From the NCBI RefSeq assembly GCF_002803515.1, contig NZ_PHQX01000001.1, positions 496,001 to 560,000 of the forward strand: DNA of 64,000 nt, given 5' to 3'. Below the pieces are notes generated by a model. That model had not been told where the DNA came from. It did no database searches and saw nothing but the letters and a program-made list of their open reading frames with translations. The translations under genes and the position numbers were made by a program. Position 1 is the stretch's first letter. Each line of letters opens with the position of its first letter. This DNA is from Stenotrophomonas lactitubi (GTDB taxonomy: Bacteria; Pseudomonadota; Gammaproteobacteria; Xanthomonadales; Xanthomonadaceae). This document shows, in pieces, positions 47,224-50,770 of this stretch.

Positions 47224-47799
47224 ATGGCGCGCGGCATCAACAAAGTCATCCTGGTCGGCAACCTCGGCAACGACCCGGACGTGAAGTACACCCAGGGCGG
47301 TATGGCGATCACCCGCATCAGCCTGGCCACCACCAGTGTCCGCAAGGACAAGGATGGCAACCAGCAGGAGCGTACCGAGTGGCACCGCGTGGTGTTCTTC
47401 GGCAAGCTCGGCGAAATTGCTGGTGAGTACCTGCGCAAGGGCAGCTCGGTGTACGTCGAAGGCAGCCTGCGTTACGACAAGTACACCGGCCAGGACGGCG
47501 TGGAGAAGTACTCCACCGACATCATCGCCGACGAAATGCAGATGCTGGGCGGCCGCGGTGAAGGCGGCGGCGGTGGTGGTGGCAACTTCAGTGGCGGCGA
47601 GCGTCCGCAGCGCCAGCAGGCCCCGCGCCAGGAGTACGGCGGCGGTGGCGGTGGCGGCGGCAACGCGCGTGGCGGCCAGGGAGGTGGTTACAACCAGGGC
47701 GGCAACCAAGGCGGCGGCTACGGCCAGCAGCGTCCGCAGCAGCAGCCGCAGCAGGCGCCGCCGATGGACGACTTCGCTGACGACGATATTCCGTTCTGA
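47224..47799 (+). CDS. ssb: Single-stranded DNA-binding protein SSB
   Basis: A 191-residue SSB. Residues 1-about 110 are the OB fold ([64 protein letters not shown]). A Gly/Gln-rich linker (about 112-178) follows, and the C-terminal tip [11 protein letters not shown] is the acidic tail that recruits repair and replication proteins. The tip has DDDIPF like that of Escherichia coli. Start ATG 47224 is fixed by the fold. An intrinsic terminator follows. Confidence 0.97.
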
Positions 47800-47824: not shown

Positions 47825-47862
47825 AAAACCCCGGCAGGGCCTTGAGGCTGCCGGGGTTTTTG
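47825..47862. terminator. Bidirectional terminator after ssb
   Basis: AAAACCCCGGCAG and CTGCCGGGGTTTTT form a 13-bp stem with A and T tracts on both sides, serving ssb and the convergent 779-residue gene that ends two bases beyond it. Confidence 0.9.
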
Positions 47863-47864
47863 AT

Positions 47865-50204
47865 TTACCGCCTAAGTACTTTCTTTTTCAGCCGTAACCG
47901 AGCGTGCCGCTCTGTCTGGTCAGCACATGTTTCATAGCGAGGGTCGGCGCAGGAACCGCACTTTTCGCATATGAGTCGTCCACAAGCACAAGTTTTTTGC
48001 TTGCCGTACACCAGAGGGCGATGTCCGCATTCAACGTTCTTTTCTTCTAGTCGTCCTCCACAATGTGCCAGTAGGGTCTTCCGCTGTCCGTCGGGGAAAG
48101 TGCCAACCAGTACACCGTTGTAATAGATGGTGATGTCCGAAATGGCAATAAACTGCGACCGGGAGACGTGCTTCTCAAGGATAGATAGTGCGTTTAGCAG
48201 CGTCTCTATCATGTTGGCGGGATCGATAATTCCTATGCCTGAAACTGCTGATGGTTGGTTGGAAGCCGGGTCATTTTGGAAAATTGATGGGTCTGTAATT
48301 CTGAGATCTCTGGCTCTGGCTGTTCGCGCTAGGGATGCGGCATGCATAGCATCTTCGGGTGAATGAGCGTGCCATCTCAGAATGCTTAGAATAGATTTTG
48401 TATCTGCCAATTCACTCGCGGCGCGCCAGCGTGCCCATGCGTGAAGAGTGAAAAGATAGAGCCAAGGAAGTCGTGGAACGCATACTTCCTGTCGTGCTGC
48501 GATGCGATTCGATTGGGATGATCGGAGAAGATCCAGGAAGTCTCTCTGTTGCGTGGTCAGGCGGTCATTTCCGGGAGGTTCCATGCCCCAGAATGAAAAG
48601 AGTACAGGTGGAATTGCTGTGATGCAGCGCCGACCAACTGCAGTTTTTTCTAAGGATGAAAGGGAATTACGCAGCACCGCCATAGCCTGGTCGCGCTCCT
48701 CGTACTGAGCCTTTGGGTAGTCCCATGCCCAAGCCGGTAGCTCAATCAGTCTTGAAACTGGATTTGTTCGTAGCGTGAAAATATCTTTGAATTGCTCTAG
48801 AAGTTTATATATTTCTATTGATTTTGTGACGCCCAGAACCCGCATGTATTCTGAAGTTGTGCACCTTAATCTGCCACCAGTCTTCCATGTGTAAGGGCTA
48901 CTGACCCCGCACAGTGTTACATCGTTACCGGCAGCATCGCTTTTGAAGCCCTTGACCTTCCAGCGGCTGGACTGTATCCCGCCGTTGATGTTGCGCCGGA
49001 GGTTTTTAACATCCACGCCATGCTTTCCGCCTACGCGCAGATCCATCTGTTGCCATTCCGTCGTGCTTCCATCCAGTTGATGCAAAGCGATATCTTCTGT
49101 GGGCAGCCCCAATCCGTTGATGTAAGTCGCAGCGCATTTTTCCGCTGCTCGCGCAGTCATCATTTGGGCGCTCAGGGCGTGCGCCATCTCTTCCGGCGTG
49201 TCAATTCCTAACTGTGGGATCCACATGTCGGATAAGCGTTGATCATTATGGTTGAGGCTGGAGAGAACAAGAGTTGCGTCCATGCGCCCAACTTCGTGGG
49301 ATTGATTCGCAATGTAGCTAAGTCGTTCGATTGAATTGCCTGGATCTGCGTCACATTTTTGTAAGGCGATTGCGACTGTTGTCCAAGGCGCGTCTGTCCA
49401 TTTTTCCCACTGCAGCCAGTGCGAATCCAATGGCAGTCCCGATTTTATCGATTCCTTAAGGACATCCCACCAGTTGGTCCCAGTTTGGGGCTGGTTTTCG
49501 AGGGCGAGACGTGCCCATTGCGCTGCTTCCGAAACCAACATCTGCGTCCTATTTGCAAATGCGATGCGTTGTAACTGATCTCGGTGGGCAGGTAATGATT
49601 CCCACATTGGCTTAAGCCATGTGATGTCAATTTCCCTCTTGTTATCCTTGATTTGGTCGAATAGTGTCTCTACTGCACGCGGCGTCCTGGCGTTAAGATG
49701 GTGCGAAATGGCGCGCTTCCATACTGGCTGTGGCGCAAGAGCTAAGGTGTCGAGCATTGCAGGTGAGAGCCACTCTGCTTCCGTCATTGCATCAATCATT
49801 GGATGCAGCAAGCGGTCGATTGCCGGGCTAATACCCGCTAGTAATCGAAGAATAGGGGCAGGGCCGACGTCGGCATCCGACGAGGCTTCTCTATGCGCAA
49901 GATGCTGCCGAGCCAGTTCGATAGTGTCTGCGTCGGTTGGAGCGAGTGGCCTGACACTGCTTGCGGATAGACGGCCGTCTGGCTGTCCAACCACGCGCAT
50001 TCGGATTAGGCGACCTAGTAGCTGGCTATTTATCGATTTGAGAGATGAAATCCGGCTTTCATTAAGGAAAATCTCGCGATTCCGATCGCCAGTCAAACAG
50101 CATGCGAAGCCAAATCCACGATTGTGGACCTGTACCACAACGCCGAAATCCTCCATCTCTACTGTGACGCCCTGAGTGAAGCCTCGTTTTGAGCTATTTC
50201 CCAT
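47865..50204 (-). CDS. Unknown large protein: cold-shock-like, PD-(D/E)xK-like and zinc-cluster regions
   Basis: A 779-residue protein with no family I can name. Residues about 17-87 resemble a cold-shock/S1 beta-barrel (MEDFGVVVQVHNRGFGF ... DRNREIFLNES). The middle holds a nuclease-like signature: a helix with E355 (ARAAEKCAATYINGLG), D388 in QQMDLRV and D398-V-K400 in GVDVKNLR, the order of E, D and (D/E)xK in restriction-endonuclease-fold enzymes. The C-terminus has eight cysteines (C715, 726, 739, 741, 746, 749, 752, 760), likely zinc-binding. The gene is visibly AT-richer than its neighbours, indicating recent transfer. An ATG at residue 17 is an alternative start. A defence or mobile-DNA role is inference. 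Confidence 0.7.
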   Translation of the reverse strand: MGNSSKRGFTQGVTVEMEDFGVVVQVHNRGFGFACCLTGDRNREIFLNESRISSLKSINSQLLGRLIRMRVVGQPDGRLSASSVRPLAPTDADTIELARQHLAHREASSDADVGPAPILRLLAGISPAIDRLLHPMIDAMTEAEWLSPAMLDTLALAPQPVWKRAISHHLNARTPRAVETLFDQIKDNKREIDITWLKPMWESLPAHRDQLQRIAFANRTQMLVSEAAQWARLALENQPQTGTNWWDVLKESIKSGLPLDSHWLQWEKWTDAPWTTVAIALQKCDADPGNSIERLSYIANQSHEVGRMDATLVLSSLNHNDQRLSDMWIPQLGIDTPEEMAHALSAQMMTARAAEKCAATYINGLGLPTEDIALHQLDGSTTEWQQMDLRVGGKHGVDVKNLRRNINGGIQSSRWKVKGFKSDAAGNDVTLCGVSSPYTWKTGGRLRCTTSEYMRVLGVTKSIEIYKLLEQFKDIFTLRTNPVSRLIELPAWAWDYPKAQYEERDQAMAVLRNSLSSLEKTAVGRRCITAIPPVLFSFWGMEPPGNDRLTTQQRDFLDLLRSSQSNRIAARQEVCVPRLPWLYLFTLHAWARWRAASELADTKSILSILRWHAHSPEDAMHAASLARTARARDLRITDPSIFQNDPASNQPSAVSGIGIIDPANMIETLLNALSILEKHVSRSQFIAISDITIYYNGVLVGTFPDGQRKTLLAHCGGRLEEKNVECGHRPLVYGKQKTCACGRLICEKCGSCADPRYETCADQTERHARLRLKKKVLRR

Positions 50205-50302
50205 CCTTGGTCATGTCCTGAATGCGGCATCAGCATTCTACTTGCGTCCCGGCGGTTTCCATAATGCAGTTGGTAATCTGAGTGGTGATACTCCAGAATC
50301 CC

Positions 50303-50482
50303 TCACCCCGCCGCGTTCATACGATCCACCGCGTCATCGGCCCCGGGAGTGCGTACCGGCGCGTTCTCCTCGGTTGCCGCGCGCCATAGCGATTCGACCG
50401 TCGTCTCAAGCGTTGGGACGCGCCCGCTGCTGTCGCGGGCGCTGCCTATTACGCCCTGCACCCGCGGCTCATAGGCCGGTTG
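50303..50482 (-). pseudogene. Probable 3' remnant of a gene of unknown family
   Basis: On the minus strand, 59 codons are open from an in-frame stop at 50483-50485 to a TGA at 50303. The translation (AYEPRVQGVIGSARDSSGRV ... DDAVDRMNAAG) looks like a natural C-terminus with normal high-GC codon use and has no start codon near its beginning. The bases to 50690 upstream carry stops in all three frames of that strand. Most likely a gene truncated or broken when the neighbouring AT-rich gene arrived. The rest of the 630-base gap (50205-50834) holds only the operator at 50771. Confidence 0.35.
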
Positions 50483-50770
50483 CTACATGCCCCGGATGTG
50501 GGAACGCGTTTTCGCCAGAACTCGTGGTGGGTGAGAGGCAGGGGCGCACCAGGCGCACGCGCAGGCTCAGCGGCGCGACTTCGATGGCCAGACGGGTCCG
50601 CTATGCCAGGGCAGTCAACCTCGGGGCGGCCTTTACGCGATTGGTAGGGATGTCGCAGGCGCGGATCGCGCGCCTGGGCGCTTGATTACTTGGCACGTCA
50701 TTGGTGTTGTGCCCCGCAGCATGGACTTTCGTGCACTGCGTCTTGCAAAAAAACAATTTCCTCCCCATGG

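Follow-up and report, generated by a model that had tools for sequence, protein, structure and literature searches.

Two described groups of systems, CoCoNuT (McrBC-like type IV restriction) and TOTE/TALON, come closest to the protein considered here, a chain of 779 residues (P0001) encoded by one gene in a stretch of 64,000 nucleotides from Stenotrophomonas lactitubi (contig NZ_PHQX01000001.1, positions 496,001 to 560,000; the window below means this whole stretch). CoCoNuT systems are predicted to target RNA and have an McrB-like GTPase (CnuB); in type I-A, the McrC-like CnuC has an OB fold of cold-shock-like type, a nuclease of the PD-(D/E)xK kind and a zinc ribbon, as well as DUF2357, coiled coils and an Ig-like domain (PMC11090510). 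TOTE and TALON comprise a fusion of TPR and cold-shock domain (CSD), a TBP and a separate effector, and TALON includes a YprA-like helicase (PMC12458937).

Type I-A CnuC is the closest combination that we found in print: both proteins have an OB fold, a PD-(D/E)xK nuclease and a zinc-ribbon-like part, whereas the 779-residue protein is the product of one gene, has another domain order and is without a match in PADLOC or Pfam. With TOTE/TALON it shares a CSD joined to helical repeats, and those systems have nuclease effectors; their parts are separate genes, whereas here all lie in one polypeptide. When hallmarks of these systems were searched for, AAA_5 (PF07728) matched 21 places in the genome, none of them in the window and the nearest more than 100 kb from the gene; for DUF2357, the protein matches nothing in Pfam at E up to 10, and PF09823 matched nowhere in the genome but was equally silent in the control genomes; and TBP (PF00352) was absent from the genome in a search that matched 4 archaeal control genomes and that a divergent TBP could escape. 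On the basis of the results given below, we think it probable that the protein is a stand-alone, horizontally acquired, metal-dependent nuclease of restriction-endonuclease-like fold that limits mobile elements. Its parts are known, its family is unnamed and the single-chain arrangement is unfamiliar; if defensive, it would reduce an immune system to one protein in which sensor, scaffold and cutter are joined, parts of the kinds that CoCoNuT and TOTE/TALON distribute over several genes.

Predicted fold and invariant residues

Nucleases of the PD-(D/E)xK superfamily carry an acidic residue on helix A, an aspartate by one strand and a (D/E)xK motif on the next. An earlier note, made from the letters of this DNA alone, had pointed to such an arrangement (that is, E355, D388 and D398-V-K400) in a protein with a cold-shock-like N terminus and eight C-terminal cysteines, and had named a structure model without a restriction-endonuclease-like core as a result that would speak against it. 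The AlphaFold2 model contains that core, together with a cold-shock fold, helical repeats and the eight-cysteine tail (Table 1). In the predicted core, helix 338–364 carries E355, D388 lies just ahead of strand 389–391, and strand 395–403 carries D398 and K400, further elements being strands 430–436 and 453–460 and helix 462–471. Solved structures were concordant with the model for the cold-shock fold and the nuclease core, and the 50 structures among the matches listed for the core (VIA-align 2) are nucleases, judged by title or as known proteins. NhoI, Eco15I, Hjc and the SPARDA nuclease (all PD-(D/E)xK) share the predicted core fold; the protein differs from such nucleases in having no sequence similarity to them by Pfam, NCBIfam or PDB sequence search and in its additional CSD and eight-cysteine tail. 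We take its acidic residues and DxK motif to stand in the same order as theirs. The predicted structure has an alpha–beta core with ordered acidic residues, the putative catalytic residues being kept family-wide, and its N-terminal part has a five-stranded OB fold with aromatic RNP1 and RNP2 motifs, as in cold-shock domains. We regard the modelled fold as well supported and its assignment as a nuclease fold as very likely; the CSD may bind single-stranded RNA or DNA, and the tail, to judge from its cysteines, may bind zinc.

The residues singled out beforehand are invariant. All 36 sequences of a first branch of the family keep E355, D388, D398, K400 and every one of the eight cysteines; the matching E, D, D and K and eight cysteines are likewise invariant in the 12 rows of a second branch (12/12); and across both branches (46/46 sequences) D371, Q376, W384 and K421 are invariant in addition to the four. 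As only 19 of the 221 columns in the core alignment are invariant, the chance that all four residues named beforehand fall there is 4e-5 (5e-4 if restricted to D/E/K columns, with columns taken as independent). Alignment A2 excludes P0037, the tail of which reads as frame-shifted. The cold-shock region is not reached in 4 of 36 first-branch records; the records of P0029 and P0031 stop short, yet the genomic open reading frames (ORFs) in loci L005 and L009 start with it.

The earlier note could not match this combination of domains to a named system, which agrees with the library searches: Pfam, PADLOC and NCBIfam contain nothing that matches the 779-residue protein at E up to 10, and the family is without a model in these three profile libraries. 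PADLOC-DB 2.0.0 gave no family for P0039, P0040 or P0041 at E up to 0.01, and a Pfam scan of all 36 members returned weak matches only (OB_RNB in 5 members and seven other families in one each). A PDB sequence search gave eight weak matches, one to a MoeN5 fusion (E 0.17) and the others at the cysteine tail, where seven eL40 chains matched (best E 1.6), and the family profile matched SelB (E 0.13), the nucleic-acid-binding protein 2mqh on residues 13–82 (E 0.18) and eL40 (E 6.5). No description of the family turned up in the literature covered (open-licence papers only).

Acquisition of the gene behind ssb

The description of a single AT-rich gene beside ssb proved accurate: the ORF is intact (779 codons), its GC content is 0.517 against 0.664 in the remaining window, and none of 570 gene-length windows elsewhere in the 64-kb stretch reaches a value as low. 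The insert starts directly after the ssb terminator and holds one gene, the nuclease; no integrase or phage gene was recognised within its 2.8 kb, promoter, terminator and repeat scans around it gave nothing useful, and flanking direct repeats were not seen. The scan did not list the ssb terminator, probably owing to its loop limit of 8 (the actual loop is 10). The approximately 500 insert bases upstream of the gene (50205–50702) have a near-normal GC content of 0.643 and no convincing gene.

Table 1 Features of the nuclease gene and its insertion site, with positions in the window
Feature	Position	Strand	Basis or remark
ssb, left flank of insertion site	47224..47799	plus	strong DNA match in 87/91 same-genus genomes; short weak matches only in 4
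ssb terminator	47829..47861	plus	9-bp stem and T run, read by eye; three bases from nuclease gene end
Inserted 2.8-kb segment missing in nine relatives	47862..50702		relatives' matches end at or before 47861 and resume at 50697–50706
Coding sequence of 779-residue protein P0001	47865..50204	minus	CSD, helical repeats, PD-(D/E)xK-like core, helical region, zinc-ribbon-like tail
Eight-cysteine zinc-ribbon-like tail, C715 to C760	47925..48062	minus	cysteine conservation; weak eL40 sequence likeness, E 1.6
C-terminal helical region, residues 499–687	48144..48710	minus	AlphaFold2 and alignment; conserved PRLPWLYLF block
Restriction-endonuclease-like nuclease core (predicted), residues 338–472	48789..49193	minus	AlphaFold2 and structure comparison (VIA-align 2)
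D398-V-K400, putative (D/E)xK catalytic motif, strand 395–403	49005..49013	minus	D and K 46/46; V 45/46
D388, putative metal-binding residue	49041..49043	minus	invariant 46/46
E355, putative catalytic or metal-binding residue, helix A	49140..49142	minus	invariant 46/46
Alpha-helical repeat region, residues 92–330	49215..49931	minus	AlphaFold2 and alignment; length varies among members
Cold-shock/OB-fold domain, residues 17–88	49941..50156	minus	RNP1-like RGFGFA (29–34), RNP2-like IFLN (45–48)

In the plasmid collection, the best match to the locus is Xanthomonas sacchari (85% over the aligned parts). The site was compared in 20 genomes (L025–L044), those whose ssb matched most closely. Both flanks were located in 13, and nine of these have 35–72 bp between the matched stretches; these empty sites support the conclusion that the nuclease gene was acquired horizontally as a single gene. 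The spacing is longer in the other four (approximately 1.0 kb in L025, 1.8 kb in L033, 4.3 kb in L042 and 7.7 kb in L031), and in the remaining 7 of the 20 the right flank lies outside the compared stretch, so that only the content behind ssb can be read there. By eye, unless a PADLOC E value is given, the stretch between both flanks holds DUF262 and HEPN-like genes in L042 (NsnA, 5e-55) and fimbrial genes in L031. In genomes with the right flank outside the stretch, ssb is followed by type I restriction in L038 (E=0), by integrase-like and type I restriction–modification-like genes in L034, by an integrase-like module similar to that of L034 in L026, L028 and L032 (including, in L028, a GajA-like ATPase at 1e-146), by Rhs-like genes in L037 and by secretion-like genes in L041. 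Such mixed cargo marks a variable cargo site rather than a purely defensive one, and the stretch behind ssb is a useful place to seek further cargo genes in the genus.

Family and distribution

Homologous clusters numbered 36 in a protein search (E <= 1e-3; 30–91% identity in the alignments) and 37 in a profile search, each of which scored only the approximately 8000 candidates with the most shared words; P0002–P0004 are copies with 89–91% identity. None of the 36 clusters has a Pfam annotation, and those with a source name carry the label hypothetical or uncharacterized; among the sources are Stenotrophomonas, Lysobacter, Rhodanobacter, Solimonas, Cupriavidus, Lelliottia and myxobacteria (Corallococcus, Cystobacter and Archangium). 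A tblastn search of plasmid records found a full-length relative in Variovorax and distant relatives in Roseomonas, Sinorhizobium and Synechocystis, and the distant ones led to the second, divergent branch, which is without the N-terminal CSD and comprises 10 clusters and four plasmid records. A tree of 44 sequences (excluding four rows, P0018, P0035, P0043 and P0047) splits 34 versus 10 by midpoint root with full support. P0032 (labelled Stenotrophomonas) is 86% identical to P0033 (labelled Lelliottia, another order) and P0009 only 36% identical to P0032 under the same Stenotrophomonas label, which fits transfer unless a label is wrong.

Full-length copies (counts include the host genome each time) are sporadic. 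The gene is present in 1 of 91 same-genus genomes (the host only, where the family has a single copy), and full-length copies number 3/395 in the sample of the bacterial family, 2/398 in that of the order (two-branch profile) and 1/398 in that of the phylum; matches to the N-terminal part only were four in the family sample and one in the order sample, and the phylum sample gave one weak match spanning residues 97–268. In 84,980 species genomes, patterns of restricted reach picked out 8 loci. This spread bears on the reading of the protein as an RNA-processing or stress nuclease that acts on the cell's own RNA, for which its cold-shock domain, as in RNase II/R, might serve: given that the gene was not found in 90 of the 91 same-genus genomes or in almost all genomes sampled at family, order and phylum level, its foreign base composition, and a second branch that does without the CSD and includes four plasmid records, we consider such a role quite unlikely.

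Copies occur on six of 72,556 plasmid records, one of which, in Synechocystis (L020, 9860–11238), is split over two ORFs with the core apart from the C-terminal tail and probably represents a broken gene. A tblastn search of 50,697 phage records gave no match, nor did IMG/VR with the CSD-branch alignment; with the second-branch alignment, IMG/VR gave one match, on a viral contig (L021, 9386–11680), in which the homolog lies on the opposite strand to neighbours read as tail, capsid and portal genes. The protein might serve a mobile element as a weapon or exclusion factor (that is, plasmid or prophage cargo directed against rivals), left here as a chromosomal relic, and the plasmid copies and the copy among genes read as structural in a viral contig are what this would lead one to expect; with no integrase or phage gene recognised in the insert, eight genome-contig copies not tied to mobile elements and a mechanism that overlaps with that of a nuclease limiting such elements, we hold it to be unlikely.

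Neighbourhoods of homologs

The earlier note had suggested a survey of homolog neighbourhoods for defence islands. For 11 loci, 31 neighbours chosen by hand were run through PADLOC. Neighbours were available for 14 loci in all, and 7 of these have strong matches to defence models (E <= 1e-20) no more than 9 kb from the homolog: PDC-S73 in L002; MzaC and MzaE in L005; DpdB and DpdJ in L007; an NsnA type, the nearest upstream ORF, in L009; SspG and SspH in L023, where the adjoining gene is annotated as a phosphorothioation-associated putative methyltransferase; DrmA, DrmB and NsnA in L024; and, in L019 (8585–13687, a second-branch member on a Sinorhizobium plasmid), GajA and GajB as the next genes, 134 bp off, which look like a complete Gabija pair. 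Weaker or less specific matches are a DUF3883 protein matching HmaA (9e-23 over part of the profile) in L020, an Mrr-like protein (3e-10) in L006 and a kinase (4e-28) in L004, and the two neighbours in L008 that were run through PADLOC gave none. For L003, L017 and L018 the reading relied on inspection by eye, annotation and the pooled scan described below; a HipBA-like pair was recognised in the first and nothing in the other two.

Two observations make the neighbourhoods a weaker guide to a defensive role. The stretch behind ssb in relatives also takes non-defence cargo, and control windows held defence systems too. In a pooled comparison at E <= 1e-20, 93 neighbour ORFs of the 14 homolog loci matched 67 PADLOC families and 98 ORFs of 14 control windows matched 81 (the control count being pooled rather than per locus); the comparison does not show enrichment, Wadjet and Gabija genes being present in the controls too. 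The control windows came from the same genomes or records through the same ORF picker, which leaves some shadow ORFs in each set; two control stretches of first choice were missing or too short and were replaced, and the 2.9-kb L050 was left out. Among the matches listed, those of the controls include JetABC, GajA/GajB (placed by eye in L052 and L057), SoFic, PDC-S37 and a PD-T4-6-type kinase, and those of the neighbours include MzaA and an RtcR-CARF regulator, which were not placed at any locus. Of the horizontally acquired single-gene defence system that the earlier note had proposed, the acquisition as a single gene is borne out by the empty sites, whereas the defensive part is left less secure by these controls and by the cargo behind ssb.

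The homolog loci examined share no single housekeeping position, a constancy that had been named in advance as evidence against the proposal. Their differing contexts, with no one cognate site, also count against a selfish, free-standing endonuclease of the homing type that would spread its own gene by cutting empty sites; at 779 residues with a sensor fold and a cysteine tail, the protein also far exceeds the homing enzymes known to us in size, and we judge this explanation very unlikely. Homing-endonuclease and housekeeping readings were both considered and ranked below that of a nuclease limiting mobile elements.

Some individual loci have further features. The Lysobacter copy L012, in the same place as L009, is reported to have an in-frame TAG inside its extent. 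In the two Solimonas genomes (L002 and L007), the adjoining flanks look shared and the sequence 2–4 kb downstream differs (PDC-S73 and SIR2 versus Dpd). In a fifteenth locus, L064, read by eye only, the gene lies between a mutase-like gene and a transposase-like ORF.

Proposed mode of action

The fold, the invariant site, the sensor-type domain, the lack of an adjacent partner gene and the sporadic spread are together in keeping with a nuclease that works by itself on foreign nucleic acid; catalysis, substrate, trigger and a defence role are inferred. A role in defence against phages and plasmids is, on balance, probable. The N-terminal cold-shock domain would capture single-stranded RNA or DNA, the helical repeats would carry the captured nucleic acid, the E-D-DxK core would cut it, and the eight-cysteine tail, probably with two zinc ions, would add contact or dimer formation. 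Given that no NTPase domain or adjacent partner gene was recognised, binding itself would trigger the cut. Invading phages or plasmids would in this way be held back, either because the protein cuts their nucleic acid or because it harms its own cell upon sensing phage transcripts or replication intermediates. More tentatively, and with slightly less than an even chance in our estimation, the proteins may form an undescribed family of single-protein immune nucleases with two ancient branches, with and without the cold-shock sensor, in which the CSD, on binding single-stranded nucleic acid of a phage or plasmid, directly activates the PD-(D/E)xK nuclease, with no NTPase, guide, methylation or second messenger involved.

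Divergent members and related cold-shock proteins

The domain layout varies among members: much of the helical repeat region is missing from P0012 and P0014 in the alignment. P0038 of Archangium gephyra (1400 residues) has an N-terminal extension of approximately 600 residues, the cysteine/histidine clusters of which resemble zinc fingers; Pfam gives no match at E up to 0.1. In the same bacterial family, small proteins encoded in L013 and L015 resemble the nuclease in their CSD, to which the profile aligns with its N-terminal part (E 1e-5 and 3.7e-4), and at approximately 205 residues they have no room for the nuclease and cysteine tail. They presumably consist of a CSD plus DUF1294, and they adjoin a gene for a 453-residue protein that resembles a magnesium transporter.
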